Positions 1,756 to 49,049 of a DNA stretch of 64,000 nt are shown in pieces. Made by a program: the position numbers and the translations under genes. The DNA is taken from the NCBI RefSeq assembly GCF_008369165.1, contig NZ_VOBA01000001.1, positions 1,357,630 through 1,421,629 on the forward strand. The letters are read 5' to 3'. Each line of letters starts with the position of its first letter. Positions within the stretch are counted from its first letter, which is position 1. Origin of the DNA: Dietzia sp. ANT_WB102. GTDB taxonomy: Bacteria > Actinomycetota > Actinomycetes > Mycobacteriales > Mycobacteriaceae. Below the pieces are notes generated by a model, which did no database searches, was not told the origin of the DNA, and saw only the letters and a program-made list of their open reading frames with translations.

Positions 1756-3150
1756 GTGGATCTGCGGGATCTGTTGTCCGTACTCCGTGCCCGCTGGATC
1801 GCCATTGTGGCTGCGACCCTTCTCGGAGGGCTCCTGGCGCTGGGAATGAGTCTTCTTACTACGCCGACCTACCAAGCGAAGCTGCAGTTCTACGTCACGG
1901 TCGCCGGGGGAGACTCCGCCGCGGCGGCCTACCAGGGTTCGCTGGGTGCCCAGCAGAGGGTGCAGTCGTACGCAGCGCTGGTCAAGAGCACGGATATTGC
2001 GCAGAAAGTCGCCGACGCCTCTGACGTCGATCTCAGCGCCACCGAGGTCGCGGGAAGGGTCACAGCCACCGCTGACGCCAAGACCGTGCTGCTCAACGTC
2101 GTGGTGTCAGACGCTGATCCCCAACGGGCGCTAAAAATGGCTGAGGCGTTCGGAGACGTCCTGCCCGAGGCGATCCAGGGCCTCGAGACCCCGGACGGCG
2201 GCGGACCGGCACTTGCCAAGCTAAGTGTGGTCAATCCCCCCGCGCTCCCCACAGTGCCGGTGGCCCCCAAGACCGAGCAAAATATTGCAATCGGCCTGGC
2301 ACTGGGTCTTCTAGCCGGAATCGGCATTGCACTTCTCGCAAATGCTCTTGATCGTAGAGTGAAGTCCACGGAGCAGTTGGAAGCGATTAGCGGTAAGCCC
2401 GTCGTTGGCTCGATCCCGTTCCGCAAGAACGAGGATAGGAATAAGGACGCCGCCCACATCGTGCCCTTCCGGGAGGGGCACTCCCCGGCGGCCGAGAGCT
2501 TCCGTCGGCTGCGCACCAACCTGCAGTTCCTCAACGTGGACAATCCTCCGCGCGTAGTTGTGCTCACCTCGTCAGTCGCAACTGAGGGCAAATCTGAGAC
2601 CGCGATCAACCTTTCGCTCGCGCTCGCAGAGTCAGGCAATCGGGTCCTCATCGTTGAGGCAGACCTCCGCCGGCCGCTGGTGGTCAGTTACATGTCCATG
2701 CCGGACAAAGTCGGCCTCACCAACATTCTCTCCGGCCAGGCCGATTTTGCGGACGTGGTACAGGAGACGCGACACGACGGTGTTGACCTGTTGGCATGCG
2801 GTCCGCTGCCGCCCAACCCCTCCGAGTTGCTGGCCTCGGATATGGCGCAGCATCTCTTCGAGGACCTTCGCGGCAAGTACGACTACGTCATCATCGATTC
2901 CCCGCCGCTACTCCCCGTGACAGACGGCGCGTTGCTGGCGAGGATCACCGACGGCGCGCTGCTCGTGGTGCGCTCCCGCAGGACCACCGCAGATCAGGTC
3001 GCGCAGGCCGTAGATAACCTGGCTAAGGCGGACGCGCCCCTTCTCGGTCTGGTGACTGTCGCAAATAGACCCGCTAAAAAAGGTTCTGCGGGCTACTACG
3101 ACTCGTATTATTACTCGTCCAAGAATTCTTCGATGGTTGAGCAGTCTTGA
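1756..3150 (+). CDS. Polysaccharide co-polymerase / BY-type tyrosine autokinase (Wzz-Wzc like)
   Basis: Controls chain length and export of the surface polysaccharide as a membrane-anchored tyrosine autokinase. The N-terminal Wzz domain starts with VDLRDLLSVLRARW and a membrane helix (about 14-34). A second helix at about 176-197 leads into the cytoplasmic kinase domain: Walker A SSVATEGKS (272-280), Walker A' VLIVEADLRRP (297-307), Walker B VIIDSPP (378-384). A C-terminal tyrosine cluster GYYDSYYYS (about 446-454) is the expected autophosphorylation tail. I chose the GTG at 1756 because GGAAAGGA lies 7 nt upstream and homologues begin with this Wzz motif; an in-frame ATG at 1663 would add 31 residues. 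First gene of a run of closely spaced same-strand genes. Confidence 0.88.
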   Translation: MDLRDLLSVLRARWIAIVAATLLGGLLALGMSLLTTPTYQAKLQFYVTVAGGDSAAAAYQGSLGAQQRVQSYAALVKSTDIAQKVADASDVDLSATEVAGRVTATADAKTVLLNVVVSDADPQRALKMAEAFGDVLPEAIQGLETPDGGGPALAKLSVVNPPALPTVPVAPKTEQNIAIGLALGLLAGIGIALLANALDRRVKSTEQLEAISGKPVVGSIPFRKNEDRNKDAAHIVPFREGHSPAAESFRRLRTNLQFLNVDNPPRVVVLTSSVATEGKSETAINLSLALAESGNRVLIVEADLRRPLVVSYMSMPDKVGLTNILSGQADFADVVQETRHDGVDLLACGPLPPNPSELLASDMAQHLFEDLRGKYDYVIIDSPPLLPVTDGALLARITDGALLVVRSRRTTADQVAQAVDNLAKADAPLLGLVTVANRPAKKGSAGYYDSYYYSSKNSSMVEQS

Positions 3151-3197
3151 TGCACGCTCCGTCCGCAGCGAAGTCACTGATTTGGGAGGAATCGCAG

Positions 3198-5069
3198 ATG
3201 ACCTCCGGTGCTCGGGTCAGACAGCGTGGAATGCGAGACCGTCGAACGGTAGGGCTCGGTACTTCGCAATGGACCGTCGTCGACTCTGTGCTATGGGCGG
3301 CAATGTTCGTCGTCGCTATATGGCTGCGATTCGATTTCTCGGTGGATCGTCTCGCGCAGTCCCTGAGAATGGGAAGCGCGTACTTCGTACTTGCTGCGCT
3401 CATAGTGCTGACGTGGGTCCTAGGTTGGTTGGTTGGGTTATACCGTGGACGGTTTGTGCCCGGCAGCGTTCTTGAGTCCAGTGTCATCACCTTCGTATTT
3501 TCGACTGCCACATTTACTGTATTTCTCGGCCACATCGTCGGAGGTCAGTACGGAGGGGTCCCGCGCTCCACGCCCATCGTGACCGGCGCATTTACCATCC
3601 TCGCTGCACTGGTCCTCAGGTCACTGGTGCGGCGGAAGAAACTGTTCGGTGCAGGCGGGACAAAGAATGCGGAGCGTGCGCTGGTCTTTGGAGCCGGCGA
3701 TGGCGGTATGCAACTCGTTCGCCAACTCCGTCGTTCAGAGGTCTCCCACTTCAATCCGGTCGGGATCTTGGATGACGACGCAGCTAAGCGCCACATGGTG
3801 ATCGAGGGTGTTCGCGTGCATGGTGGACGCGACATTCTCGAAGAATTGGCCAAGAAGACGGGGGCTTCTACCCTCCTGTTGGCGGTACCGAGCCTGCCCG
3901 CCGACGAGCTTATCGAGATCCGAGACCGTGCCGAATCCGCAGGTCTACGGGTGCTGATGTTGCCGCCACTCGATTCGATGATGCGGGGTCGCGTTGCTGC
4001 GGATGAGCTTCGCGAGATCAACGTGAATGATCTGTTGGGACGTAAGCCCGCGCAACTCAATCAGACGCAGATTGCCGAGTACCTCCGCGGAAAGCGGATC
4101 ATGGTGACCGGCGCCGGAGGCTCAATCGGGTCCGAATTGTGCCGCCAGATCAGCAGGTTTCGTCCAGCTGAACTCATGATGCTGGACCGAGATGAATCTG
4201 GCCTGCATGCAGTCCAGCTTTCAATTCACGACCAGGCCATGCTTGATGGGGAGGATACGGTCCTCGCGTCGATCCGCGACCGGAGTTCGATCCAGGAAAT
4301 TTTTGCCCTGCGTAAGCCCCAAATCGTGTTCCACGCAGCAGCGCTCAAGCACATGCCGTTGCTCGAGCACTATCCGCTTGAGGCACTCAAGACAAACGTC
4401 ATGGGCACCCTGAACCTGCTCGAGGCAGCCTCGATGAGCGGCGTGGAGACCTTTGTCAACATCTCCACGGACAAGGCAGCCAACCCGAGTTCGGCGCTGG
4501 GCACCAGCAAACGGATTGCGGAAAGACTCACGGCCGCGGAAGCCAAAAAGAACGAGCGCGCCAAGTACGTATCTGTGCGCTTTGGAAATGTTCTCGGTTC
4601 CCGCGGCTCTGTGCTCACAGTTTTTGAGAAGCAGATCAAAGATGGCGGTCCTCTGACTGTGACCGATCCCGACGTCAATCGCTTCTTCATGACCATCCCT
4701 GAAGCCTGTCAGTTGGTACTTCAGGCTGCGGCCGTCGGGTCGAGCGGCGACACCCTTGTCTTAGACATGGGGGAGCCGATCAAGATTGCCGACGTTGCAA
4801 AAACTCTTATCGAACAGTCCGGAAAGAAACTCGAGATCGTCTACACCGGCCTACGCGAGAACGAGAAGATGTCGGAGGAACTGTTTGACGACACGGAAGA
4901 GCCGGAAGTCAGCTCCAAACACGAAGCTCTCTACGAAGTTCGAGTTCCCCCCATCGCGCTGGATCTAATGGAGATCGCTGAAATTGCGGATCACGACGAG
5001 GCTCGGGACTGGCTCGCGAGCCACGCGTATCCCTCGTTTGAGCCTTATCTGACTGAAAGTAATAGGTAG
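3198..5069 (+). CDS. Membrane-bound UDP-HexNAc 4,6-dehydratase (CapD/WbpM family)
   Basis: Converts UDP-GlcNAc to a 4-keto-6-deoxy sugar nucleotide, the precursor of QuiNAc/FucNAc-type residues. Four membrane helices occupy about residues 27-146. A first Rossmann-like domain (GAGDGG) follows, then the catalytic extended SDR domain with VTGAGGSIGSE (about 303-313), AALKHMPLLEHYP, NISTDKAANPSSALGTSKR. The usual Tyr of the SDR triad is replaced, as in WbpM-type enzymes. Full length (about 620 aa) for the family. GGGAGGA at 3184-3190 supports the ATG at 3198; an ATG at 3150 overlapping the previous stop is possible. With the reductase at 27.2 kb it could supply the initiating sugar. Confidence 0.9.
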   Translation: MTSGARVRQRGMRDRRTVGLGTSQWTVVDSVLWAAMFVVAIWLRFDFSVDRLAQSLRMGSAYFVLAALIVLTWVLGWLVGLYRGRFVPGSVLESSVITFVFSTATFTVFLGHIVGGQYGGVPRSTPIVTGAFTILAALVLRSLVRRKKLFGAGGTKNAERALVFGAGDGGMQLVRQLRRSEVSHFNPVGILDDDAAKRHMVIEGVRVHGGRDILEELAKKTGASTLLLAVPSLPADELIEIRDRAESAGLRVLMLPPLDSMMRGRVAADELREINVNDLLGRKPAQLNQTQIAEYLRGKRIMVTGAGGSIGSELCRQISRFRPAELMMLDRDESGLHAVQLSIHDQAMLDGEDTVLASIRDRSSIQEIFALRKPQIVFHAAALKHMPLLEHYPLEALKTNVMGTLNLLEAASMSGVETFVNISTDKAANPSSALGTSKRIAERLTAAEAKKNERAKYVSVRFGNVLGSRGSVLTVFEKQIKDGGPLTVTDPDVNRFFMTIPEACQLVLQAAAVGSSGDTLVLDMGEPIKIADVAKTLIEQSGKKLEIVYTGLRENEKMSEELFDDTEEPEVSSKHEALYEVRVPPIALDLMEIAEIADHDEARDWLASHAYPSFEPYLTESNR

Positions 5070-5075
5070 ACGCAC

Positions 5076-6392
5076 ATGAAGATCACCGTCGTAGGCCTGG
5101 GGAAAATCGGACTTCCCCTAGCGGTGCAATTCGCAAGGTCCGGACATCATGTGTTCGGTGCAGATGTCAACCAGAATGTCGTAGATCTGGTTAATAGTGG
5201 GACCGAGCCATTCCCGGGCGAGGAACACCTGGCTGAATACCTCTCCGAAGCAGTGGCTGCAGGCCAGCTTACTGCGCAAACGAATACCGCTGACGCAGTC
5301 GCAAAAAGCGACGCCGTTGTAGTTGTGGTACCCCTTTTCGTTGACGAAGATGCCCGCCCCGACTTTGCATGGATGGATTCCGCGACGAGCGACATCGCGG
5401 GTGGTCTGCGTAAAGAAAACTCGACCCTCGTTATCTACGAGACGACGCTGCCGGTGGGCACAACGCGGAACCGGTGGAAGCCGAAGCTCGAGCAAGAGTC
5501 CGGCCTCACTGAGGGCCAGGATTTCCATGTCGTCTTCTCGCCGGAGCGGGTGCTTACCGGACGGGTCTTTGAGGACTTGCGTAAATACCCCAAACTTCTT
5601 GGAGGGCTGGGTAACGAGGGCGCACGTCGCGCTACAGAGTTTTACGAGCAGGTGCTCCAGTTCGACCAGCGCCCGGATCTCGAGCGAGGCAACGGCGTAT
5701 GGGATCTGGGTTCGGCCGAGGCCGCGGAGATGGCAAAGCTCGCCGAGACCACGTACCGGGACGTCAACATCGGACTGGCCAACCAGTTTGGTGTGTTTGC
5801 AGCGAAGAACGGCATTGACGTCTACGAGGTCATTGAGGCGAGCAACTCGCAGCCGTACAGCCACATCCACCGACCGGGCATCGCTGTGGGCGGGCATTGC
5901 ATTCCCGTGTACCCGCGGCTGTACCTGTGGAACGATCCTGACGCGACAGTGGTCCGCGCCGCGCGCGAGGCCAATGCGGCGATGCCAAGCTACACCGTCG
6001 GCCTGGCTGTCGGCGCCGCCGGCGGGTCACTTGCGGGCAAGAAAGCAGTCGTTCTTGGCGTCGCCTACCGGGGTGGTGTGAAGGAAACCGCTTTCTCTGG
6101 CGTTTTTGCCACAATCGAGGCCCTGCGCGAGGCTGGCGCCGAAGTCACCGTGCACGACCCCATGTACTCCGACGAGGAGTTGCGTGGGTTCGAGTGGGAG
6201 CCCTACGCCCTGGGAGATCACGTCGACGTTGCGGTCCTGCAGGCTGATCATGCCTCCTACCGCGAGCTCTCCGCCGACGACCTTCCCGGGGTGAGCATCG
6301 TCGTGGACGGGAGGCGTGTCCTAGATGCCGACCGGTTCGGCTCGGCGACGTTCCTCGTCGTGGGGCGACCGGCCGAAGGGTCCGACGACTGA
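5076..6392 (+). CDS. UDP-N-acetylhexosamine 6-dehydrogenase (WbpA/WecC type)
   Basis: NAD-dependent two-step oxidation of C6 of a UDP-HexNAc to the uronic acid. Rossmann motif VVGLGKIGLP at 5-14, catalytic-lysine region AEMAKLAETTYRD (Lys221), and active-site cysteine in VGGHCIPVYP (Cys275). 438 aa, typical for the family. It sits 6 bp after the dehydratase gene and overlaps the acetyltransferase by one base (TGATG), so translation is coupled. With the next three genes it matches the WbpA-D-E-B set of the UDP-GlcNAc(3NAc)A pathway, which makes UDP-GlcNAc the likely substrate. Confidence 0.9.
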   Translation: MKITVVGLGKIGLPLAVQFARSGHHVFGADVNQNVVDLVNSGTEPFPGEEHLAEYLSEAVAAGQLTAQTNTADAVAKSDAVVVVVPLFVDEDARPDFAWMDSATSDIAGGLRKENSTLVIYETTLPVGTTRNRWKPKLEQESGLTEGQDFHVVFSPERVLTGRVFEDLRKYPKLLGGLGNEGARRATEFYEQVLQFDQRPDLERGNGVWDLGSAEAAEMAKLAETTYRDVNIGLANQFGVFAAKNGIDVYEVIEASNSQPYSHIHRPGIAVGGHCIPVYPRLYLWNDPDATVVRAAREANAAMPSYTVGLAVGAAGGSLAGKKAVVLGVAYRGGVKETAFSGVFATIEALREAGAEVTVHDPMYSDEELRGFEWEPYALGDHVDVAVLQADHASYRELSADDLPGVSIVVDGRRVLDADRFGSATFLVVGRPAEGSDD

Positions 6393-6988
6393 TGGCGGTG
6401 CGGGTGGTGGATTCCGCAGACGTCGCGGAGACGGCGACGATCGGTGACGGATCCTCGGTGTGGCACCTAGCCCAGGTGCGCGAGGATGCGCGAATTGGCG
6501 AGAACTGTGTTATCGGACGAGGCGCGTATGTGGGCACCGGGGTGACGATGGGCGCCAATTGCAAGCTTCAGAATTACGCCCTCGTGTACGAACCGGCCGA
6601 GTTGGAGGACGGGGTGTTTATTGGACCCGCCGCAGTTTTCACCAATGATCACTACCCAAGGTCGATCTCCCCGGACGGGTCTCTTAAGCGGGCAGACGAC
6701 TGGGACGCGGTGGGCGTCACGTGTCGGACTGGTGCCTCTATCGGGGCTCGCGCGGTGTGCATTGCTCCGGTCACCATCGGGCGGTGGGCGATGGTTGCGG
6801 CTGGATCGGTCGTGACCAAGGACGTCCCTGACTTCGCCCTCGTCGCGGGAGTTCCCGCTCGCCGCATCCGTTGGGTCGGCCGGGCTGGCGTGCCACTCGA
6901 GGACTCCGGCAACGGAGCGTGGATCTGCCCGCAGACCGGCGACCTGTTCCGCGAGACTGGAAACACCTTGATCGAGGAGACAACCTGA
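6392..6988 (+). CDS. Sugar 3-N-acetyltransferase, left-handed beta-helix (WbpD/WlbB type)
   Basis: Acetyl-CoA-dependent N-acetylation of the 3-amino group of a UDP-2-acetamido-3-amino uronic acid. The 198-aa protein shows hexapeptide repeats (ATIGDGSSVWH, ARIGENCVIGRGAYVGTGV, ASIGARAVCIAPVTIG) and the FTNDHYPRS loop seen in WbpD-like enzymes. Starts at the A of the preceding TGA and overlaps the aminotransferase start by one base. Order dehydrogenase-acetyltransferase-aminotransferase-oxidoreductase supports the substrate. Confidence 0.88.
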   Translation: MAVRVVDSADVAETATIGDGSSVWHLAQVREDARIGENCVIGRGAYVGTGVTMGANCKLQNYALVYEPAELEDGVFIGPAAVFTNDHYPRSISPDGSLKRADDWDAVGVTCRTGASIGARAVCIAPVTIGRWAMVAAGSVVTKDVPDFALVAGVPARRIRWVGRAGVPLEDSGNGAWICPQTGDLFRETGNTLIEETT

Positions 6989-8073
6989 TGGACTACATTC
7001 CCCCCGCCAAACCGCTCATCGGTGATGATGAGCGCGCCGCGGTCGACCGCGTGATGCGCAGCGGAATGATTGCGCAGGGTCCGGAGGTACGAGCGTTCGA
7101 GGAGGAGTTCTCAACTCACTTCGGTCTGGGCCGCGAGTGCGTAGCAGTGAACTCCGGCACCTCTGGCCTGCACCTCGGGCTGCTCTCCAGCGGGATCGGT
7201 CCCGGAGACGAGGTCATTGTGCCGTCGTTCACCTTTGCGGCGACCGCCAACTCCGTAGCACTCACCGGCGCCACCCCGGTGTTTGCGGACATCGACCCCC
7301 ACTCGTTCTGCCTGTCGCCGGCTGCAGTAGAAGCCGCGATCACTGAGCGGACGCGAGCGATCATGCCGGTGCACCTTTACGGACATCCGGCGGACATGCC
7401 AGCGCTCCTCCGGCTAGCCGAATCCCACGGTCTTGATGTGTTCGAAGACGCGGCCCAGGCACACGGGGCATCCCTTGACGGGACTCCGGTCGGGGCCTTC
7501 GGTCGGTTCGGCATGTTCTCGCTCTACCCCACCAAGAACATGACAGCTGGTGAAGGCGGAATGGTGTCTGTGGCGGATGCTGAGACCGCGCGCAAGCTGC
7601 GCCTCTACCGCAATCAGGGCATGGAGAAGCAGTACCACAACGAGGTCGTAGGAATGAATAACAGGATGACCGACATCCATGCCGCGATCGGGCGGGTGCA
7701 GCTCAAAAAAGTCGACGCGTGGACGGAGACCCGTCGGTCCAACGCAGCGCACTTGGACGCTCATCTCGAGGGCGTCATCGTGCCGCCCGTGGCGACCGGC
7801 GCTCGGCACGTCTACCACCAGTACACCGTGAGGATCGCAGAAGATCGCGACGGTTTTGCTGCGGCGCTCAAGGACGAGTACTCGGTGGGGTCGGGGTTGT
7901 TCTACCCAGTACCGAATCACAGGCTTGCCCCGTTTGCCGTCGATATTGATCTGCCGGAGACGGCAACCGCGGCAGGGGAGTGCTTGTCGCTCCCAGTGCA
8001 CCCGTCGATTGGTGAGGCAGAACTGGACAGGATCGTCACGGCGGTCAACAAGTTGGCAAAGGCGGGGAGTTAA
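6988..8073 (+). CDS. PLP-dependent sugar aminotransferase (DegT/DnrJ/EryC1 family, WbpE-like)
   Basis: Installs the amino group at C3 of the 3-keto uronic acid nucleotide using glutamate as donor in WbpE-like enzymes. N-terminal PPAKPLIGDDE, cofactor-pocket NSGTSGLHLGL, FEDAAQAHGA (PLP ring aspartate), and the Schiff-base lysine in LYPTKNMTAGEGG (Lys183). 361 aa, full length. A longer upstream in-frame start exists, but the ATG at 6988 overlaps the previous stop and matches family N-termini. Confidence 0.9.
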   Translation: MDYIPPAKPLIGDDERAAVDRVMRSGMIAQGPEVRAFEEEFSTHFGLGRECVAVNSGTSGLHLGLLSSGIGPGDEVIVPSFTFAATANSVALTGATPVFADIDPHSFCLSPAAVEAAITERTRAIMPVHLYGHPADMPALLRLAESHGLDVFEDAAQAHGASLDGTPVGAFGRFGMFSLYPTKNMTAGEGGMVSVADAETARKLRLYRNQGMEKQYHNEVVGMNNRMTDIHAAIGRVQLKKVDAWTETRRSNAAHLDAHLEGVIVPPVATGARHVYHQYTVRIAEDRDGFAAALKDEYSVGSGLFYPVPNHRLAPFAVDIDLPETATAAGECLSLPVHPSIGEAELDRIVTAVNKLAKAGS

Positions 8074-8074
8074 C

Positions 8075-9076
8075 ATGGCGGATCTCAGAGCAGGACTAAT
8101 TGGCCTAGGAATGATGGGGCGTCACCACGCACGCGTGCTTGGGACCCTCGAAGGTGTCGAACTTGTGGCAGTCGCAGATCCTGCGGGCGACCACTTCGGC
8201 GCAGCCAAGGGGCGGCTTCTGCTCTCTTCAGTGTCCGAGCTCATTGATCAGGGAATAGACTATTGCGTGGTCGCAGTGCCAACGGGCTCTCACGAGGATG
8301 TGGCCTTGGAGCTTGCCGACGCTGGCGTCCACGCCTTAATAGAGAAGCCGCTTGCACATGACAGCCAGTCTGCACGAAGAATATTTTCCGCTTTCACAGA
8401 GCGTGGCCTTATCGGCGGCGTGGGGCACATTGAGCGATACAACGCTGCGCTGCAGCAAGCACGCATGAGAATTGCACAGGGCGACTTAGGCGAGATATAC
8501 CAAGTGGCCACGCGCCGGCAGGGCCCATTCCCGGGACGTATAGCCGACGTAGGTGTGGTCAAAGACCTAGCAACGCACGACTTCGATCTCACCTCGTGGG
8601 TAACCCAGCAATTTTACACATCGGTGTCGGCGCAAACCGGCCATAAGTCGGGCCGCGTGCATGAAGATCTCGTGGCCGTAATAGGGCAGCTTGATAACGG
8701 GACGGTAACTAGCCACCTGGTCAACTGGCTTTCTCCGCTGAAGGAGCGTTCAACCATTATCACCGGAGAACTGGGAACGTTCGTCGCGGATACTCTCACA
8801 GCAGATCTGACCTTTTATGGAAACGGAAGCGTGCCGACTACATGGGACGAGATTTCGCGCTTCCGTGGGGTGTCCGAAGGTGACGTACTGAGATACGCTT
8901 TTCAAAAGCCCGAGCCGCTTCGAATTGAGCACGAGAACTTCCGGGACGCCGTAAAAGGTGCGGAGTCCGACATTGTTAATTTCAAGGCCGGTTTAGAGGT
9001 AGTTAAAGTCGCTGAAGCTGTTATCCGATCATCTGCAACCAGTGAGGTGGTTCATCTTGACCCGCTCAGCCGGTAA
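8075..9076 (+). CDS. Gfo/Idh/MocA-family sugar-nucleotide 3-oxidoreductase (WbpB/WlbA-like)
   Basis: Oxidises C3 of a UDP-HexNAcA so that the aminotransferase can act. N-terminal Rossmann motif GLIGLGMMGRHHA, the family motif LIEKPLA, then the alpha/beta C-terminal domain with GHIERYNAA and DLATHDFDL (His/Asp pair). 333 aa. The ATG at 8075 follows the aminotransferase stop by one base; upstream in-frame extension is rejected because it would overlap the aminotransferase by over 200 bases. Confidence 0.87.
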   Translation: MADLRAGLIGLGMMGRHHARVLGTLEGVELVAVADPAGDHFGAAKGRLLLSSVSELIDQGIDYCVVAVPTGSHEDVALELADAGVHALIEKPLAHDSQSARRIFSAFTERGLIGGVGHIERYNAALQQARMRIAQGDLGEIYQVATRRQGPFPGRIADVGVVKDLATHDFDLTSWVTQQFYTSVSAQTGHKSGRVHEDLVAVIGQLDNGTVTSHLVNWLSPLKERSTIITGELGTFVADTLTADLTFYGNGSVPTTWDEISRFRGVSEGDVLRYAFQKPEPLRIEHENFRDAVKGAESDIVNFKAGLEVVKVAEAVIRSSATSEVVHLDPLSR

Positions 9077-9090
9077 TTCCTTGTCTGCAG

Positions 9091-10395
9091 ATGTTTAAAA
9101 CGAAAACGCCCAAACCGGGCCGACTGCTTAAGTCCGTGTTGACCCTCGCCGGTGGCACGGCGGCCGGTCAGGTCGTGACACTAGGTGCATATCCGGTTCT
9201 GACTCGGATATATTCCCCAGAGGAAATGGGCATATTCGCAGTATTTTTTGCCCTCGTATCGATTTTAGGAATAGCCGTCAGCGGACGTTACGAGCTGGCA
9301 GTGCTTCTTCCTGAATCGGACGACTACGCAGTGAAAGTCGCGAAGACTGGAGTTCGCGTCGCCGCGGCAATCTCGATATTACTGTTCGGTGTTGTCTTAG
9401 TTGCCAGCTCGCCAATAGCTGGGGTACTTGGCGAACGACAACTTGCTGGATGGCTATTCCTGATACCTCCTATCGCGTTTCTGACGGGGCTGTTCAATGT
9501 CCTCAATTTCTTGAACAATAGGGCCGAGCTTTACCCTGCGCTAGCGCGAGTACAGTTATCCAGGTCTTTCGTCGTGGCAACATGTCAGGTTTTGCTTGGA
9601 TTAGCCCATGCCGGGCCGGCCGGCCTGATCGTGGGACAAGCGGTTGGTGTACCGGTTGCGACCCTCCACCTTGCGCGATCGGCATCGAAAGCAAAAATCC
9701 GGGACGTTGAAACAACGTGGCGCGATTCGATTGAAATTGCGAGGCGGTACCGACAGTTCCCTCTTTACTCCGCGCCAGCGGCTTTGGCAAACACTGGATC
9801 GGTGCACATCACGAATATTCTGGTAGGTTCAATATTCTCAACTGTAACTCTCGGGTTCTTTTCGCTTGCTCAACGCGCCCTCGGATTGCCCACTATGCTT
9901 GTTGTGCAGGCGATTAGTCAGGTGTTCCTTCGAGAGGCTACGAGACGGCGTCACTCAAGCGAACCACTTACGCCTCTTTTCGACCAGTTCGCTAAGCGCT
10001 TGGGTCTGCTGGCGGTGCCGCTATTCGTTGCGCTATTTTTCATTTCTCCCTCTCTTTTCGGTTTCGTCTTTGGGAGTGAATGGCGAGTCGCGGGCGAGTA
10101 TTGCCAACTGTTGGTACCACTTTTTGCGGCAAGGTTTGTAGCAAATGGTCTTGCAACGGTCACCGCTGTTCTCGAACGACAAATTGTGGCCTTGTCATGG
10201 CAGGTGGCCATCTTACTTATCGCAGTGTCGTGTGCGGCAGCGGTAGCGTACGCACAGGGCTCGATTGAACTCTTTCTAGTTCTTTTTTCGATCTCGGGAG
10301 CCGTAGCGCAGTTCTCTCTACTAGTTACACTTCGGAAATTGTGTGTAAGTCACGATGGCGACACACAGATGAAGGATAGCAATGCTACTGAATGA
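9091..10395 (+). CDS. Wzx-type lipid-linked oligosaccharide flippase
   Basis: Polytopic membrane protein (434 aa, roughly 12 predicted helices). The N-terminus resembles polysaccharide-synthesis flippases: TLAGGTAAGQVVTLGAYPVL followed by TRIYSPEEMGIFAVFF. It would flip undecaprenyl-linked repeat units across the membrane for Wzy polymerisation. Base composition is visibly more AT-rich than the preceding biosynthetic genes, a common sign of exchange of serotype-specific genes. Its 3' end overlaps the next gene by 14 bases. Confidence 0.85.
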   Translation: MFKTKTPKPGRLLKSVLTLAGGTAAGQVVTLGAYPVLTRIYSPEEMGIFAVFFALVSILGIAVSGRYELAVLLPESDDYAVKVAKTGVRVAAAISILLFGVVLVASSPIAGVLGERQLAGWLFLIPPIAFLTGLFNVLNFLNNRAELYPALARVQLSRSFVVATCQVLLGLAHAGPAGLIVGQAVGVPVATLHLARSASKAKIRDVETTWRDSIEIARRYRQFPLYSAPAALANTGSVHITNILVGSIFSTVTLGFFSLAQRALGLPTMLVVQAISQVFLREATRRRHSSEPLTPLFDQFAKRLGLLAVPLFVALFFISPSLFGFVFGSEWRVAGEYCQLLVPLFAARFVANGLATVTAVLERQIVALSWQVAILLIAVSCAAAVAYAQGSIELFLVLFSISGAVAQFSLLVTLRKLCVSHDGDTQMKDSNATE

Positions 10396-10966
10396 GCGTG
10401 CAGTTCTATTTCGTGTCCGCTATGTTATCGAGTACGCAAATATGCCGGAACCGCCGAGCGATCGCACTGTAGTGTCACTTCCGCTAGAAACAGATACGTT
10501 ACAACGGTTCCGAACGCTCCCTCCCGAACTGGAAAATCTTGTTGCCCGGCGATTGGGCGGTCCCTGGCGATTGTTCGTATACGAAGCAGAAGGAACTCCA
10601 GTGGCGTGGTCTTTCCTGCATCTCCCAGAGCAGAAAGAATGGCTCGACTCAGTTCCTACCTTACCCGGAGAATGCAGGGAAACGTCAACTTTCGTCATGC
10701 CGGAACAACGGGGCAAGGGCTTGCGCGCGAAGCTGCTGGAGGCTCAGTCCGCGTTCTGTACCGATATGGGACTGAGGCGCCACTGGGCAATTGTCGAAAA
10801 GCGGAATGGAGCATCGATTTCTTCGAGTCTGCGGGCGGGCGGGCGGATTGCTGCGAAGAGTTTAGTCATTAAAATGCTTGGTCGCAATATTGTAGAAGTG
10901 CGAATAACGCCAAATGGGAACCCTCGACCTTCAATTCTTTTTCGACGTCGACGAGAAGTGCGGTAG
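10382..10966 (+). CDS. GNAT-like N-acyltransferase
   Basis: 194-aa cytosolic protein. The segment STFVMPEQRGKGLRAKLLEA (about residues 100-119) fits GNAT motif A, the acyl-CoA pyrophosphate-binding loop (R/Q-x-x-G-x-G/A). It is followed by a segment like motif B (RRHWAIVEKRNGASI). AAGGA 5 nt upstream supports the ATG at 10382. Located between the flippase and an ATP-grasp gene, it probably acylates a sugar amine or an amino compound attached to the polysaccharide; the substrate is inference. Low GC like its neighbours. Confidence 0.6.
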   Translation: MLLNERAVLFRVRYVIEYANMPEPPSDRTVVSLPLETDTLQRFRTLPPELENLVARRLGGPWRLFVYEAEGTPVAWSFLHLPEQKEWLDSVPTLPGECRETSTFVMPEQRGKGLRAKLLEAQSAFCTDMGLRRHWAIVEKRNGASISSSLRAGGRIAAKSLVIKMLGRNIVEVRITPNGNPRPSILFRRRREVR

Positions 10967-10977
10967 TGTGACGAATT

Positions 10978-12048
10978 ATGAATAGACCGAGCCAGAGGCC
11001 CGAACTTAAATTTGCAATCTTGGATCCCTTTTCTGATCAGGGGATCGGCTTGATCCGATCCCTTCGCCGAGTGCCTGGTGTGACGGTCCGTCCAGTGTTA
11101 GACGGCGGCCGCGGAGTATTTATAGAAGCCGCAGCGCGCTTCTTGCTAGGTAACACATTGACGACAAAAGAGGCCTTGAATCTCGACTTCTCGGTAGTTC
11201 CTACGACTCATCGAACTACGACGATGGCGCTAACTATGTATGAGTCGCACTGCGCTCGCCTGGGGTTGTCTCGGACCATGTTGGAGGTGGGCGATAAGCG
11301 CGAAATATTGGCGTTGGCCGAAAGTGTCGGCGTGCCGGTTCCAGCCCAGTATACTCGCGATGAACTTTCGTCCGGTCTCGTTGCGTTCCCGGTGTTTTAC
11401 AAAGAGCAGCACGAGCAAGGGGGCGGTCGGAGGGGGGTTGCCCGCAAGGTCGCCGACATTCCGACGAACGGCGATGACCTACTGATCGAAGAGTTTATTG
11501 AGACACAGGGGACCTACGGTCTCGGTTTCTTTGCCCGGGATGGGGTGATCTGCTCGTCTGTTGCGCACTTCGAGAGATTGAGTTCTCCCAACACGGGGGG
11601 TTCTGCGGTTGTTTTAGAACGATTCTCTGATCCGCGCTTAGAGGAACTGACAGCAAAGCTGTTGAGTAAAATATCGTATTCCGGCTGGGGCCTCGCGGAA
11701 TTTAAACGATCCGCTAAGGATGACGATTATGTGCTTATGGAGATTAATGGAAAACTGTGGGCTTCGAGCGAATATTCTTGGTTAGCCTCACCGGATTTGC
11801 TGCAAACCTGTTTCGGGCTCCCGCCGCTAACTGCGCGCCCGTTCGATAGGCCTGGACTATTTCTGCATCGAGTTAACATTGCCGCTATTTTCGCACTTAT
11901 GTTTAGCGGGATAGGTGCGCGGCCGAGGGTGTTCATCTATGCGACGGCTTTGGCGATCGGCCTTGGCGGCGTAGTCCGGATAGGCGTAGCCAAGCTGGGA
12001 CAAGTGTGGCGACGTGTTACGCCGTATGACAACGATTGCAAATTTTAG
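10978..12048 (+). CDS. ATP-grasp ligase-like protein (carboxylate-amine ligase type)
   Basis: 356 aa. The central region has ATP-grasp features: an N-terminal pre-ATP domain, LEVGDKREILALAESVGVPV, a lysine strand FYKEQHEQGGGRRGVA, DLLIEEFIETQGTYGLGFF, and the metal-binding strand YVLMEINGKLWAS (Glu/Asn). The C-terminal part after about residue 300 is hydrophobic and ends with a basic tail, suggesting membrane attachment. ATP-grasp enzymes activate a carboxylate as acyl-phosphate and join it to an amine. In a locus that builds a uronic acid, amidation or aminoacylation of the sugar carboxylate is a reasonable but unproven role. Confidence 0.65.
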   Translation: MNRPSQRPELKFAILDPFSDQGIGLIRSLRRVPGVTVRPVLDGGRGVFIEAAARFLLGNTLTTKEALNLDFSVVPTTHRTTTMALTMYESHCARLGLSRTMLEVGDKREILALAESVGVPVPAQYTRDELSSGLVAFPVFYKEQHEQGGGRRGVARKVADIPTNGDDLLIEEFIETQGTYGLGFFARDGVICSSVAHFERLSSPNTGGSAVVLERFSDPRLEELTAKLLSKISYSGWGLAEFKRSAKDDDYVLMEINGKLWASSEYSWLASPDLLQTCFGLPPLTARPFDRPGLFLHRVNIAAIFALMFSGIGARPRVFIYATALAIGLGGVVRIGVAKLGQVWRRVTPYDNDCKF

Positions 12049-12412
12049 TGGGATCAAAGCGCTGCCTGCGTCGAGCTGACTTAGTTTCATCTTTGTTACC
12101 GCGAAACGTGCGAACGCTATCGAATTAATTACTAGCCATGAGCTTCAAGATCCCCGTGGCTGGCGCACGAACAAGTCCATAGTCCGCCACCTAGCTCGCT
12201 TAGCATCGGCTAGGATGGATCAGATCGAAGGCTAGGCGTATACGGAATCGCCGTAAGTTTATGGTCAGGTGCCGCGCAAGAGCCAGGTCGCCCGGCACAC
12301 ATGTGCCGGCATCATCGCGCGCGAAGATCTTGCGGACGGGAGGAGGCCGCCGCACTCATAATTATTTGGGCCGTTGTATGTGAGGGTCCGCCGAGCCGAA
12401 GGAGCCCTAACC
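12049..12412. other. Intergenic region, nothing recognised
   Basis: About 360 bp between the ATP-grasp gene and the ceramidase-like gene. No frame with coding character and no clear RNA structure. A promoter for the next gene may be present. Confidence 0.4.
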
Positions 12413-13675
12413 TTGAGCATAAGAATGTGTGGGTCATCAGTAGATATTACTCCGTTACAGCCGTGCCCTTTGGGGGCGTCCCGCTATCCCGAGAGGAACT
12501 TCACTGAAATCCATTCCCGCCTTGAAGCAAACCTTATTCGCGTAGCCAGCGAGCGGGAGGAGATTGTATTTTTAATTTCGATTGATGTGTTATATGTGGG
12601 GCCGCGGTTCATTGACGCAATCGTTGAACGAACTGACTACCCGCGAAACAAACTAGTTTTTCTCGCCTCGCATACGCATCAAGCACCCGTTCTCGACGAG
12701 ACGAAGCCGCGCCTCGGAAGAATAGATCAGGCACATTTCATTAGAGTAGTTGACATTATTAGCCGCGAGATAACCGCGCTACTTGGTCGCCCAACCTCCG
12801 CGGTGGAAATAACGTCAGCTTCCGGTCAGTGTAATCACTCCATAAATCGGCGGCGCATTTTTAGGAAGAATGTGCGGCTGGCTCCGAACGCCGCGGGCGC
12901 CCGCGATGAGACTGTCACCTTCGCGCTCATTCGTGAAGTAGGCGGGCCTCCCGTCGCTGCGATATGGAACTACGCGTGCCATCCGGTCGCCTATCCACAC
13001 CACTCTTCAGTTTCTGCGCACTTCCCGGGGATCGTCAGGGATAGTGCTAGGCAGCTAGTTAATCGTCCCGAGCTTCCAGTGGTATACGCTCAGGGATTTT
13101 CTGCGAATACTAGGCCCATGATTACCCGTTACCCCCAGTCACTTAGGGGGCTCGCCGCTAGGCTGATTAAGGGGCCGCGATTCTATACAATGAGCCGCTT
13201 TGGCTATAGTTTTTGGACTCGGTCACTGAATAGAGCGATCAATCGGGTTATCTTGCGAAGCATTTCGATGCCTAAAGCACGCCTTGAGACGGCCTCATTA
13301 CGCGCTGTAGAAATTCCGTTTTCGCGCGTAGCGGAGGCGGCCGAACCGCGCGGGCCTCTTGCTGTAAAGTATGTCCGGTTTTTCTCGTCCCAGAAGTCGG
13401 TAGGGCTACTAGCATTCCCTGCTGAAGTGCCAGCCGAACTTGCGATCATACTGCGGAACGGCTCACACGACGACCTTCTTCTATTGGCAGGCTGTGCCGA
13501 CGCTACCTTTGGTTACCTCCCATTGCGATCCTGGTTCGCCGAAGGAGGGTACGAGGTAACGGGTTTCTTGAAGCCGTTCTCGCTTAAGTCAGTGTCAACC
13601 TCCGCTGTCGATGAACTGGTGTCGACCGCAACTAGTATGTTTGGCGGACTTTGGGATAGCTCATCGGATAAGTGA
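12413..13675 (+). CDS. Neutral ceramidase-like amidohydrolase domain protein
   Basis: The 420-aa product resembles the catalytic half of neutral/alkaline ceramidases. It has an N-terminal VDITP strand, the metal-site motif FLASHTHQAPV, IWNYACHPVAYP (equivalent to the second metal-binding His region), VYAQGFSANTRPM near the usual nucleophile loop, and FPAEVPAEL. No clear signal peptide. I chose TTG 12413 because AAGGAG lies 8 nt upstream and the product then begins just before the VDITP strand; an ATG at 12425 is an alternative. Ceramidase-fold enzymes cut amide bonds of N-acyl compounds. Beside an ATP-grasp and a GNAT gene it may remove or trim an amide-linked decoration. Function unproven. 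Confidence 0.6.
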   Translation: MSIRMCGSSVDITPLQPCPLGASRYPERNFTEIHSRLEANLIRVASEREEIVFLISIDVLYVGPRFIDAIVERTDYPRNKLVFLASHTHQAPVLDETKPRLGRIDQAHFIRVVDIISREITALLGRPTSAVEITSASGQCNHSINRRRIFRKNVRLAPNAAGARDETVTFALIREVGGPPVAAIWNYACHPVAYPHHSSVSAHFPGIVRDSARQLVNRPELPVVYAQGFSANTRPMITRYPQSLRGLAARLIKGPRFYTMSRFGYSFWTRSLNRAINRVILRSISMPKARLETASLRAVEIPFSRVAEAAEPRGPLAVKYVRFFSSQKSVGLLAFPAEVPAELAIILRNGSHDDLLLLAGCADATFGYLPLRSWFAEGGYEVTGFLKPFSLKSVSTSAVDELVSTATSMFGGLWDSSSDK

Positions 13676-14340: not shown

Positions 14341-15170
14341 CTATCCGGGTGCGGCTAAACGGGTCAGTCCGGCAGTGATCAGGTGAGCCCATGCGGCGGA
14401 TCTGTCCAGGTGAAGGATGATTCTTCGTGCATGCCGAGTAAGTTTGGCTGCAAGTGAGAGCAGTCGCAGTCGCAACCGTTTGGGTTCCCAACCCTCGGCC
14501 GGAGTGCCCGCGAGAGCGGTGATCTGCGACCACGCGATCAGTAGTTGCGCGAGCTGGGAGATCAAGATCCAGATCCGATTTCCGGCGGTGGACTGCAGGG
14601 GCAGGTTGGCCAGCCCCGTGTCCTTGGCGGCGCGGATGCGATCCTCGCATCGGGCACGTTGGCGGTGACGCACTTCCAAGTCTTGGATCTGGCCGCGACA
14701 TGTGTTGGTGACAAAGGCGGTTAGGCGCCGCCCGTCGGCGCCGGTGAACCGGAGTTGAGCACCTGGGTGCGGACGCTCTGCTCGAACGATTAGGCGCATT
14801 CCTGCTGGCCAGCGGCCCAGATCGGCCACGCCAGTCAGCTCGACGACCTCGGCGCCATCTCGGATGCCGCCGCCTGAGGTCAGGGCGGATTGCCATGCTG
14901 CGGCGGGCATCTGGTTGACCCATGCGGCCAGGGCCGGGGTGAGGGCGAATCCGACGGAGTACTGAACACGATTGCGGTGCAGATGCTCGAGGAAATCGTG
15001 GCTGGCGCCGGCGCCGTCGGTTCGTACCAACACACACCTCCCCGGCCGCGAGACATCAATGCCCGGGATCGATTTAAGCGCGGCGGCCAGCACGTTCTTG
15101 TGATCAGTGGCGGTATTGGCGCCCGCGTTTCCTGGTCGCAGCAACGCAGCAAGAGGTTCGCCACCGCCAC
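14341..15170 (-). pseudogene. IS1380-family transposase, C-terminal part
   Basis: Encodes the region from GGGEPLAALLRPGNAG through LVRTDGAGASHDFLEHL (second catalytic aspartate) to the C-terminus ending TRLAAPG, characteristic of IS1380 DDE transposases. The frame is cut at 15170 by insertion of an IS21-family element. The missing upstream coding part continues at 17769. Removing the IS21 element and one 5-bp duplication rejoins the two parts in frame (CDHGLGGGGEPLA). The reconstructed gene still lacks its first roughly 100 or more codons, so the element had probably already decayed. Confidence 0.88.
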
Positions 15171-15291
15171 TGAGTATTTGAGGGTTTGGGAGCCACCGGA
15201 TATTGAGGTTCGGAGCCACCGTTATTGGCGTTGAGAGCCGGTGGCCGATGGCGTGGGAGCCACCGGCTCTCGTGCGCTGGTCCCGGGGGGG

Positions 15292-16035
15292 TTAGTTCAC
15301 GGCGGTGTGTTCGCGCATGTTGAAGGTGCCGGTCTCGATCCAGAGGGTGTTGTGCACGATGCGGTCCATGATGGCGTCGGCGTGTACGGCGGAGCCGAGG
15401 CGCTGGTGCCAGTCCTTCTGGGCGTATTGGGTGCAGAACACCGTCGAGGCGTGTCCGTACCGGCGCTCGAGGAGTTCGAGCAGCATGCTGCGCATGCCTT
15501 CGTCCGGCGGGTTGAGGAGCCATTCGTCGAGCACGAGCAGCGTGAAGGCGGCGTACTTCTTCAAGAACGTCGTCTTGCCGTTCGGCTTGTCTTGCGCCAA
15601 TGCCCACGCCTCGGCCAGATCCGGCATCCGAATGTAGTGCGCCCGGATCCGATGGGTGCAGGCCTGCTTGGCCAGAGCGCACCCGAGATAGGACTTGCCG
15701 GAGCCGGTGAAGCCCTGGAAGACGACGTTCTGGTGCCGGTCGATGAACGAGCAGGCGCCGAGCTGAGCGATCACGCCCTGGTCCAGGCCGCGCTCGTGGA
15801 GCATGTCCAGCCGGCGCAGATCGGCGTTCGGGTAGCGCAGGCCAGCTCGCCGGATCAGTCCCTCGACCTTGGCGTGTGTGTACGACGAGTGGGCCTCGTC
15901 CACGACGATCTTGACCTGGTCCTCGAAGCCCATGCCCAGCACGAGGGTCTCATCGCGAGCCTCGAACGCCTCCAGCAGAGCGGTGGCACCCATCTCGCGT
16001 AGCTTGCGACGGGTCTCGGGGTCGAGCCGGGTCAT
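15292..16035 (-). CDS. istB: IS21 helper ATPase IstB (copy 1)
   Basis: 247-aa AAA+ ATPase that assists the IstA transposase in target capture. Walker A GFTGSGKSYLGCALAKQA, Walker B LLVLDEW, and the IstB-typical ERRYGHASTVFCTQY. The start at 16035 gives an ATGA overlap with the istA stop. An upstream in-frame extension to 16383 exists but overlaps istA and is rejected. Confidence 0.9.
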   Translation of the reverse strand: MTRLDPETRRKLREMGATALLEAFEARDETLVLGMGFEDQVKIVVDEAHSSYTHAKVEGLIRRAGLRYPNADLRRLDMLHERGLDQGVIAQLGACSFIDRHQNVVFQGFTGSGKSYLGCALAKQACTHRIRAHYIRMPDLAEAWALAQDKPNGKTTFLKKYAAFTLLVLDEWLLNPPDEGMRSMLLELLERRYGHASTVFCTQYAQKDWHQRLGSAVHADAIMDRIVHNTLWIETGTFNMREHTAVN

Positions 16036-17606
16036 CGGGCACCTCCGGTGGCGTAGTAGTCGGCCCCACGCACGTACCCGCCGGCGTCCTGGGCGGGCCG
16101 GTCCTGGCCGGCCCTGCCGGTCGGTGGTGCGGGTCTGTCCTGCCCGGTTTCCAGAATCGGGCGCAGGTGGGCGTACCGCGGAGATCGGATCGGCCCAGCC
16201 AACGCGATCCGGCACGCGGCCTCGACCCGCTCGGCCGAATAGCGGCGGGTCAACCGCAGCACCGCCAGCTCCGGGTTGATGCCCTGCTCGGCGACGGGCA
16301 CCGATTCGAAGATCCGATCGGTCACGACCAGGGCCGAGGGGCCGACTCGCTCGGCCCATTCCCTGACTCTGCTCTGGTCCCACTGCCGGTACTTCGGCCC
16401 GGCCGGCAGATCTGCATCGTTCGTGCGGTATTCGTTGACCACGGTCTCGGGCAGCAGCACGTGGCTGGCCAGTCGTTGGTGGCCGCGGTGCACCTCCAGC
16501 GTCGATGCGGTGATCCTCAGGTCGACCTTGGCGCCCACGTGCGGGTACGGCACGGAGTAGTAGTTGCGGGCGAAGGACACGTGACCGTTGCGCCCGACCT
16601 TTCGGCCGTAGACCCAGCGGCTGATCTCGTACCCGGTGGCCGGCAGTGGCCGCAGCAGCTCCTTCTCCTCCGAGGTGAACATGCTGGCCCGTGAGCCGGC
16701 CCGTTTCTGGAACGGCTCAGCGTTGTAGGCGTCGAGTTGGTCGACGATCGCGGCCTTCAACTCCGGCAGCGTGGCGAACGTCCGCGTCCGTAGGGCGGCG
16801 ATGATCCAGGTGGCCACGTGCGCCACGGTGTTCTCCACGCTCGCCTTGTCTTTGGGCTTGCGCACCCGGCCGGGCAGGACTGCGGCCGAATAGTGGGCGG
16901 CCATCTCCCGGTAGGCGTCATTGAGGACGATCTCGCCCTCGCGGGGATGGGTGATCACGCCGGTCTTGAGGCTGTCACAGGCGATCCGCGGCACGGAGCC
17001 GCCGAAGAACTCGAACATCGCCACGTGGGCCCGTAGCCAGGTGTCCTGCTTCATGTCCAGGGTCGGTTCGACGAAGGCCTACCGGGAAAACGGCAGGCAC
17101 CCAACGAACAGATACACCCGCCTCGCCTCGCCAGTGACGGGGTCGGTCAGCTGCATCGTCGGGCCAGACCAGTCCACCTCGACGGTCTGCCCGGCCTTGT
17201 GCCCAACCCGGGAGGCCAGCCCGGCGACCAGTACATGCTGCTGGTACTGCTTGCAAAAGCGGTCGTAGCCCATCGCCGGGGCCCCTGCGACTGCGCACCT
17301 GTCGGTGTACTCGCCGTGCAGAAGCTTCATCGTCACCCCGACCCGGGCCATCTCCCGATGCACCTCGGCCCAGTCGGGCTCGGCGAACACGCTCTCGTGC
17401 TCACCCCGGCCCGGGAACAACAGCGAGTACACCTCGCCGTCCGGCAGGTCTGCGACGTCGTCCCAGCTGAGCTTGGCGGCATCGGCGGCCTCCAGCACCG
17501 CCGCGACGCTATTGCGCGAGATCTGCTGCGAGGCCGCGATCGCCCGCCCCGACAGGCCCTCGGCCCGCAACTGCAAGACGAGTTTCGCCTTGATCTTCCT
17601 TACCAT
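16032..17606 (-). pseudogene. istA: IS21 transposase IstA (copy 1) with in-frame amber stop
   Basis: About 524 codons from ATG 17606. N-terminal helix-turn-helix (MVRKIKAKLVLQLRAEGLSG), the DDE catalytic core from VEVDWSGPTM through FFGGSVPRIACDSLK to the glutamate region KDKASVENTV, and a C-terminal beta domain (RKVGRNGHVSFARNYYSVPY). The reading frame is broken by a TAG at 17079-17081 in ...LPFSR-stop-AFVEP, where the family normally has a tyrosine; TAC to TAG is one base change. No shift of frame occurs. IstA is therefore probably truncated before most of the catalytic core. Confidence 0.88.
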
Positions 17607-17768
17607 TGGGAACTGCTCCTTCCGCCAGGTGCCCGTTACACCCAGCGGAAGGAGCCTAAGAAGGTGGCTCTGAACGGGAATAACGATGGCTCCGACGACG
17701 TCCAAAGCGTCAAGCTGCTACCGGCTCCCAGACCCAATATGACTGGCCCTCAGAAGACCGAATACTCA

Positions 17769-24759: not shown

Positions 24760-24860
24760 TGAATAGACTCCTGAGCAGGTTGGTCGGCTGTCGATCGACT
24801 TGTATGAGTCTAAAGTGTTGACGGTTCGAGAGGAGGGCCGCGTCTGAATCTCAACCAAGT

Positions 24861-32241: not shown

Positions 32242-32580
32242 CTGTTCCTCCCGGTGTTCGCCACCAGAATCCACAAATTCCGACTCCGTAGAACCCGGGA
32301 CACACCAGAGACTCCAACCAACCCAGTGCGACTCACTCGGTGTTGAAGAACGCGCGGCAGTGAAAACCAGGAGACGATTACCCAATGCGACGGAATGTTC
32401 GGTCTTCTTCGGGCGGACTGGAGCTGTGAGCGTGTCATGTCTCTTGCCCTCGCTAGATGCTTCTCGTGGCGGGGTGGCCGGGCGGGGAGAATCAAGTAGC
32501 GAAGAGGTCCTTTCTTGAAGTTAACCACTGTAATTTCGAATGCGGCACCAGTGGGCGCCTGAATATAGGAGATGAGCGCA

Positions 32581-34254: not shown

Positions 34255-34409
34255 GTCGCGTCATGCCTGAGGGCAGGCTCGTGGATGGAGCCTGTGCCAA
34301 GCCGCCCGCGATGGCACACGCTGCAGCGGAATGGGGTTCACGACCGCAAGTTAACAGTCATACTTGGCGAGAGGTTGGCTACAGGTATCTGAGCGAGGGG
34401 GCCGTAATC

Positions 34410-48986: not shown

Positions 48987-49012
48987 GGTGAAACCCTAGA
49001 CGAGACTCATTG

Positions 49013-49031
49013 TTAGGTGAGCCTTGCCTGT
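49013..49031. promoter_or_regulatory. DtxR/IdeR-type iron box
   Basis: TTAGGTGAGCCTTGCCTGT fits the 19-bp DtxR/IdeR operator (consensus TTAGGTTAGSCTAACCTAA) with the left half perfect apart from one position. It lies between the divergent permease and binding-protein operons. Predicts repression of both when iron is plentiful. Confidence 0.75.
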
Positions 49032-49049
49032 GTGGTTGTATCTACATTC

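Follow-up and report, generated by a model that had tools for sequence, protein, structure and literature searches.

The closest described parallel to the genes considered here is the Wbp/Vim pathway of Porphyromonas gingivalis. In the part of the published account used here (PMC7468200), the product of WbpA, WbpB, WbpE, and WbpD is a di-N-acetylated uronic acid. Its C-2 acetyl group is taken off by VimE, a putative deacetylase, which frees the amine; the putative N-acetyltransferase VimA presumably transfers serine or glycine to that amine, and WbpS makes the uronamide. Elsewhere, as the same part notes, genes related to vimA are neighbors of polysaccharide deacetylase genes. An ATP-grasp domain of the TupA type (Cj1438C) amidates glucuronic acid in the capsule of Campylobacter jejuni, according to the portion of PMC11800379 that concerns it. 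Here, we analyze a stretch of 64,000 nucleotides from Dietzia sp. ANT_WB102 (contig NZ_VOBA01000001.1, positions 1,357,630 to 1,421,629; the whole stretch is termed the window herein), which was confirmed to contain three genuine open genes at 10382-13675, encoding a GNAT-family acyltransferase, an ATP-grasp ligase-like protein, and a ceramidase-like protein. We propose, with a probability of roughly 45%, that these genes work as an acyl-exchange module acting on a diamino sugar, which would be deacylated and then re-acylated.

The window resembles the Wbp/Vim system, as presented in the cited part, in having WbpA/B/D/E-like genes together with a gene of deacylase type, one of GNAT type, and a possible amide-forming gene. 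It differs in having a ceramidase fold where VimE is of carbohydrate esterase 4 type, a PF00583 GNAT without a match to the VimA-related FemAB model, and an ATP-grasp protein where WbpS is of asparagine synthase type. Like Cj1438C, the window ATP-grasp protein is encoded in a polysaccharide locus and might have a uronic acid as its substrate for amide formation, but the only Pfam match of the single sequence is PF02786, below the cutoff (E = 0.042). The PEP-CTERM/XrtA exopolysaccharide loci with a FemAB protein (TIGR03019) and a deacetylase, as mentioned in the same part of PMC7468200, also have a GNAT-fold transferase and a deacetylase near polysaccharide genes, whereas TIGR03019 matches in two of the related genomes introduced below (G766 and G1109) were weak and below the cutoff; exosortase genes were not searched for. 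Neutral/alkaline nonlysosomal ceramidases (PDB entries 2zws and 4wgk) share superfamily and catalytic positions with the ceramidase-like protein, which is unlike them in its length (420 residues versus 646 for the 2zws chain), in its lack of a PF04734 match and of a signal peptide-like start, and in its location in a polysaccharide locus. Among open-license publications, no relevant description of this combination of genes was found.

Results

The ceramidase-like protein is assigned to the neutral ceramidase superfamily

The ceramidase-like protein had no ceramidase match in Pfam and no match in NCBIfam, including the VimE deacetylase model NF053580, and taken alone it matched no PDB chain at an E value of 1. 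In a tblastn search, it matched 11 plasmid records, 4 of which are annotated as neutral/alkaline ceramidase N-terminal. A 10-row family alignment (A3) used as a profile against the PDB reached the neutral ceramidase of Pseudomonas aeruginosa (2zws; E = 9.3e-25) and the human enzyme (4wgk; E = 3.7e-21). The 4-row subfamily profile alone reached them at just 0.15 and 0.059, respectively, which is nonsignificant, so the tie to the ceramidases passes through intermediate family members.

Seven residues (H87, H89, N145, R146, H190, E338, and Y368) are invariant in all 10 rows of A3 and were likewise found in 8 of 8 rows of a second alignment, which includes the held-out G1394 protein and the organism's own canonical ceramidase. 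Their counterparts in 2zws (Table 1), counted from the printed profile alignment, include H97, H99, H204, E411, and Y448, which we take to be zinc ligands. The active-site residues on which the original prediction depended are, by alignment, present, and the window protein is accordingly assigned, by sequence comparison, to the neutral ceramidase superfamily with its metal and catalytic positions kept. For the human neutral ceramidase, a review (PMC6952831) names His196, Arg257, Tyr579, and Tyr591 as critical.

The canonical model PF04734 (Ceramidase_alk) did not match the window protein, its relatives from Azospirillum and G1394, or a fusion protein of G766 (the G1109 protein was outside that scan). 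In the window organism's own genome, PF04734 matched only another gene about 1 Mb away (E = 4.7e-146), the canonical ceramidase, with which the window protein does not group in the tree. The candidate explanation that the window gene is the ordinary ceramidase of this organism was therefore rejected. A hydropathy scan showed no signal peptide-like N terminus in the window, Azospirillum, G766, and G1109 proteins (best 19-residue means of 0.5 to 1.3), suggesting that they are likely cytosolic; a Caulobacter relative outside their clade had a best mean of 2.1.

A rare clade linked to Wzx and GNAT genes

The window protein and those of Azospirillum ramasamyi and genomes G766, G1109, and G1394 form one group in a 25-row tree (support, 100/99; the Azospirillum row was flagged as long). 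Four of the five clade members come from the class of the window genome; the fifth, Azospirillum, was also the closest plasmid match by E value (tblastn, 33%, E = 2e-27). The clade is rare and patchy in the sampled genomes. With profile A1, a family member was found at an E value of ≤1e-6 in 24 of 394 genomes of the class, and only the window genome and G766 matched at <1e-50. Four of 249 genomes in the family of G766 matched at ≤1e-15, two of them strongly (G766 and G1109), as did 6 of 297 in its order at ≤1e-25, again two strongly (G766 and G1394), and 1 of 5 in the genus of G1109. Within the window organism's own family, the window genome alone matched, both for the ceramidase-like gene (1/251) and for the ATP-grasp gene (1/251; E = 1e-5). 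In a sample of the phylum, the single ceramidase-like sequence had matches at 1e-3 in 6 of 396 genomes, of which five were weak. Profile A1 found one distant locus, from Verrucomicrobia, among genome contigs and no match among viral sequences.

All five clade members were found in polysaccharide loci. In Azospirillum, the ceramidase-like gene starts 50 bases after the flippase gene, in a locus with nucleotide-sugar dehydrogenase, Gfo/Idh, DegT, and ATP-grasp genes. The same locus (L009, 11051-11812) encodes a protein without a relevant Pfam or NCBIfam match whose HDVD motif presumably resembles that of polysaccharide deacetylases. G766 encodes a fusion of the ceramidase-like domain with a GNAT domain (PF13480 at 599-712, E = 8.2e-12), and the fusion gene adjoins wzx, which is followed by another GNAT gene, of PF00583; a HisF-like gene (PF00977, E = 2.6e-51) also lies within this locus (L060, 2833-3618), and such genes occur in acetamidino-sugar loci. 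The ceramidase-like gene of G1109 is flanked on one side by a PF13480 GNAT gene and on the other by wzx, after which comes a PF00583 GNAT gene; close relatives of the window dehydrogenase and aminotransferase are encoded in this locus as well (Table 1). The G1394 locus was found after this linkage pattern had been written down and fits it: the ceramidase-like gene is accompanied by Wzz/kinase, CapD, and DegT profile matches and a Wzy_C protein, and the neighbor of Wzx is a PF13480 GNAT, which shares 55% identity with the fused G766 domain and comes after a small, weakly PF00583-like protein (E = 0.028, below the cutoff). A Mutator-type transposase gene separates the ceramidase-like gene of G1394 from this GNAT-Wzx block. 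The gene adjoining wzx thus encodes a GNAT in 4 of 4 clade members of the window's class (PF00583 in the window, G766, and G1109; PF13480 in G1394).

A Wzx gene lay ≤4.3 kb from the ceramidase-like open reading frame (ORF) in 5 of 5 clade loci, compared with 1 of 18 family loci outside the clade (post hoc Fisher test, P = 1.8e-4); four of the five clade Wzx proteins were in the Wzx profile, and G1394, the one held out, gives a P value of 0.11 alone. The 18 controls, with flanks of 5.7 to 9.9 kb on each side, are neither independent nor exhaustive and comprise 7 plasmid records, 8 of the 22 other matching genomes of the class, and 3 of 4 intermediate genomes. Eight of the 11 tblastn plasmid records were opened, one being the clade member Azospirillum; H2, H3, H5, and further plasmid records were left out, and the weak matches G1206 and G988, short loci of the phylum sample, and the 4.8-kb contig L011, all without a long flank to hand, stood outside the control set.

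Among family loci outside the clade, that of Devosia (L012, 4383-13803) has the family gene between an amidohydrolase gene and sugar ATP-binding cassette transporter genes, near a glucosamine-6-phosphate deaminase gene, a context that hints that other branches may act on N-acyl amino sugars in catabolism. In the 2.2-Mb genome G725, at least four ceramidase-family ORFs lie within 8.1 kb (L068, 8242-16253).

As a base rate, Wzx was searched in 34 genomes and found in one besides G766 (G997), with no GNAT profile match in its 20 kb. Eight plasmid records carry a related Wzx, and six of them were examined (the other two are UR115 and Azospirillum, the latter being one of the clade members); Massilia was alone among the six in having an annotated GNAT nearby. 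The numbers behind this base rate are small, and the annotation is incomplete. The best plasmid match of the window Wzx is from Massilia litorea, and behind it lie two PF13480 GNATs and a protein matching the VimE model (E = 3.3e-43), below its cutoff (148 versus 440 bits). With a VimE-like gene and GNATs beside a related Wzx, as in the Wbp/Vim scheme, the Massilia locus makes the window look like the same logic carried out with another deacylase fold.

The GNAT and ATP-grasp proteins

The window GNAT scored 23.2 bits against PF00583, above the gathering score of 20.7, and is placed in the GNAT superfamily; its other matches were a subthreshold one to PF13508 in Pfam and an irrelevant one in NCBIfam. 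By BLASTP, it is 28% identical to the G766 GNAT over 86 residues (E = 2e-7). Because the four GNATs sit in their own profile, only leave-one-out results count, and these recovered the window protein at an E value of 0.0018, that of G766 at 7.5e-24, and that of G1109 at 7.6e-23. In 120 genomes of the family of G766, the profile gave six matches, namely, G766 and five weak ones; around four of the five weak loci (the fifth was not examined), there was no other polysaccharide profile match.

The ATP-grasp protein alone matched no PDB chain at an E value of 1, and by tblastn it matched 26 plasmid records (lowest E value, 4e-7); among the 20 listed, 11 are annotated as ATP-grasp and 8 as carboxylate-amine ligase. 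A four-row profile, three rows of which are relatives, reached carbamoyl-phosphate synthase (E = 8.5e-13) and D-Ala-D-Ala ligase B (E = 1.8e-12) in the PDB. E255 and N257 of the MEIN motif, presumably metal-binding residues, are invariant in the four rows and aligned with Glu and Asn of carbamoyl-phosphate synthase. The family assignments of all three proteins in the original prediction are supported, that of the ATP-grasp protein tentatively, as is its theme of amide chemistry. Its view of the three genes as a unit was not supported: only the window and Azospirillum, of the five clade loci, and 0 of 18 controls had a recognized ATP-grasp gene, and an alignment of the two proteins covers just part of each, at 25% identity (E = 0.001). 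The trio as a conserved operon was rejected on this distribution.

The window locus and its surroundings

The genes upstream from wzx include, by family, all four enzyme types of the WbpA/B/D/E set (Table 1), and Pfam and NCBIfam scans also found Wzy-type genes in the locus. From this set, the locus is predicted to make a diacetamido uronic acid, which upholds, as a prediction, the earlier idea of a carboxyl sugar and specifies it as a carboxyl amino sugar. Since the specific equivalog models scored below the cutoff, the identity of the sugar is deduced from the neighboring gene families.

The GNAT start codon overlaps the 3' end of wzx, and cotranslation of these genes is therefore probable. 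Among the listed starts of the ceramidase-like ORF, the one that gives the longest version is at 12374; the AAGGAG sequence at 12399-12404 makes TTG 12413 the likely start. The 364 bases between the ATP-grasp and ceramidase-like genes (12049-12412) hold no convincing ORF and might be a decayed gene remnant. The wzx, GNAT, ATP-grasp, and ceramidase-like genes have G+C contents of 0.53 to 0.54, compared with 0.68 in the window beyond 30 kb, which suggests a horizontally acquired cassette. Directly downstream from the ceramidase-like gene, at 14341-17705, lie IS21-type istA/istB genes and another transposase-like ORF; plasmids of Rhodococcus ruber and Dietzia kunjamensis carry copies of the IS21-type genes with about 91% identity across two thirds of the query.

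Table 1. Features of the window, with positions counted from its first nucleotide
Feature	Position	Strand	Basis
CapD/PglF-like nucleotide-sugar 4,6-dehydratase	3147..5069	+	PF02719, E = 1.4e-101
Nucleotide-sugar dehydrogenase, WbpA-like	5076..6392	+	TIGR03026, E = 8.5e-91, above cutoff; 66% to G1109
Hexapeptide acetyltransferase, WbpD-like	6392..6988	+	NeuD-type model, E = 2.4e-23, below cutoff
DegT aminotransferase, WbpE-like	6988..8073	+	PF01041, E = 5.6e-119; 65% to G1109
Gfo/Idh oxidoreductase, WbpB-like	8075..9076	+	NF040723 (UDP-GlcNAc 3-dehydrogenase), E = 3.5e-57, below cutoff
Wzx-type oligosaccharide flippase	9091..10395	+	PF13440, E = 3e-26
GNAT-family acyltransferase, 194 residues	10382..10966	+	Directly after wzx; PF00583, E = 8.6e-5
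ATP-grasp ligase-like protein, 356 residues (EFKR and MEIN motifs; hydrophobic stretch at the C terminus)	10978..12048	+	
AAGGAG, likely ribosome-binding site of the ceramidase-like gene	12399..12404	+	Sequence
Ceramidase-fold protein (neutral ceramidase superfamily), 420 residues	12413..13675	+	Profile and alignment
HTH motif (His87, His89)	12671..12679	+	Aligned with His97/His99 of 2zws
NR motif (Asn145-Arg146)	12845..12850	+	Alignment
His190	12980..12982	+	Aligned with His204 of 2zws
Glu338	13424..13426	+	Aligned with Glu411 of 2zws
Tyr368	13514..13516	+	Aligned with Tyr448 of 2zws

Elsewhere in the window are a second IS21-like pair (29534-31902), an IS3-like gene (28392-29315), and minus-strand WecB-like epimerase, CapF-like, and CapE/FnlA-like genes at 21483-24858, as for N-acetylfucosamine (CapD profile match at 23728-24858); these genes and the transposase-like ORF above are named from sequence. 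Two small, secreted-looking proteins (32572-33174 and 34080-34991) share a segment of the type AEVxIGPFAVQVPD...PLPYPLEW and are apparent paralogues. The region 46001-50000 has a G+C content of 0.72 to 0.75 and the strongest AT skew among the 2-kb steps (0.27 and 0.19).

Discussion

By analogy with the Wbp/Vim pathway, we infer the activities, substrates, and reaction order of the proposed module as follows. WbpA/B/E/D-like enzymes would make uridine diphosphate (UDP)-2,3-diacetamido uronic acid, from which the ceramidase-fold protein, by homology a cytosolic zinc amidase, would strip one N-acyl group, either on the sugar nucleotide or on a lipid-linked sugar, and thereby expose an amine. The GNAT, as proposed for VimA, would add another acyl or aminoacyl group to the freed amine. 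Where an ATP-grasp protein is present, it could form a further amide, by amidating the C6 carboxylate as WbpS and Cj1438C do or by joining an amino acid to the amine, and Wzx would then export the unit. The monophyly of the clade, its linkage to Wzx and GNAT genes, the G766 fusion, the catalytic residues, the Massilia parallel, and the Wbp/Vim precedent argue for this acyl exchange. More tentatively, a ceramidase fold may have been recruited as an N-deacylase of nucleotide- or lipid-linked diamino sugars, a nonorthologous replacement of VimE that yields Porphyromonas-like aminoacylated sugars, possibly with an ATP-grasp protein in the place of WbpS.

Several observations weigh against the acyl-exchange proposal. 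The window GNAT matched no VimA- or FemAB-type model (TIGR03019 and PF13480) in the Pfam and NCBIfam scans, and the G1394 protein escaped the leave-one-out GNAT profile at an E value of 0.01. The expected co-occurrence of the genes elsewhere stood in part: the ceramidase-like gene recurs with GNATs in polysaccharide loci, but the ATP-grasp gene does not keep pace with it, and no GNAT was recognized in the Azospirillum locus by Pfam, BLAST, or the GNAT profile. The anticipated link to uronic acid loci was similarly mixed, as a nucleotide-sugar dehydrogenase, the mark of a uronic-type sugar, had a profile match in 3 of 5 clade loci and none in G766 and G1394, which have CapD and DegT matches instead, as for a bacillosamine-type sugar. 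DegT, found in 5 of 5 clade loci, also occurs in 5 of 18 controls (L014, L016, L061, L086, and L088), and control L063 has a nucleotide-sugar dehydrogenase match 11 base pairs away, so the link to amino sugars may be wider than the clade, with Wzx as the mark of the clade itself. A GNAT of a different type (PF13527) lies about 2.6 kb away in control L016 (Natronococcus), and the 18 controls were not scanned for GNATs of all types. Diaphorobacter and Deinococcus have Wbp-like genes and Wzx with no ceramidase-like profile match or annotated GNAT within about 6 kb, which makes the module accessory; in Diaphorobacter, transposases follow Wzx. The transposase ORFs behind the window ceramidase-like gene may mean that the locus is decaying. 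Structure models were poor (mean predicted local distance difference test score of 33 for the ceramidase-like protein and one relative and 37 for the ATP-grasp protein alone), and neither was used for a fold search.

Canonical members of the family hydrolyze lipid, a further point against the acyl-exchange proposal, and the ceramidase-fold protein might then remove O-acyl groups or act on a lipid, such as a lipid carrier or a ceramide-like lipid, instead of an amino-sugar amide. Its solved relatives are indeed ceramidases, and the organism also has a canonical one elsewhere; we consider such substrates unlikely in view of the linkage to Wzx and DegT, the shorter protein, and the lack of a signal peptide-like start. 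The order of events in the original prediction was another, in which the uronic carboxylate first receives an amine or amino acid through the ATP-grasp protein, the GNAT then attaches an acyl group to this amine, and N-acyl trimming by the ceramidase-fold protein comes last. The amidation of glucuronic acid by a TupA-type ATP-grasp protein in the C. jejuni capsule, as related in the cited portion of PMC11800379, and the uronic-type gene set of the window speak for this order. However, three loci of the clade have the ceramidase-like gene and GNATs without an ATP-grasp gene, so the conserved part cannot begin with the ATP-grasp reaction. Because the Wbp/Vim pathway, in the part of its account cited above, is proposed to deacylate and then re-acylate the same kind of sugar, amidation first appears improbable and deacylation followed by re-acylation the likelier sequence.

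It is also conceivable, if quite improbable, that the ceramidase-fold protein recycles N-acyl amino sugars and came by chance to lie in a horizontally acquired polysaccharide cassette. The low G+C content from wzx to the ceramidase-like gene would suit such a salvage role, as would the relatives outside the clade in catabolic-looking clusters (that of Devosia with its deaminase and sugar transporter, and the f115 group, whose genes carry sequence-derived names). Against chance placement stand the polysaccharide loci of 5 of 5 clade members and the GNAT domain fusion in G766.

Together, the related clusters, which keep similar genes together, suggest an unrecognized way of swapping groups on amino sugars. 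If the acyl-exchange proposal is true, an unannotated branch of the neutral ceramidase superfamily, whose possible role is masked by names such as "hypothetical protein" or "ceramidase," would gain a function, and the deacylation step of the Wbp/Vim type would have a second fold. Surface glycans in the class of the window organism would then contain acyl-exchanged or aminoacylated amino sugars, and in Porphyromonas, such a sugar is a known protein attachment point.

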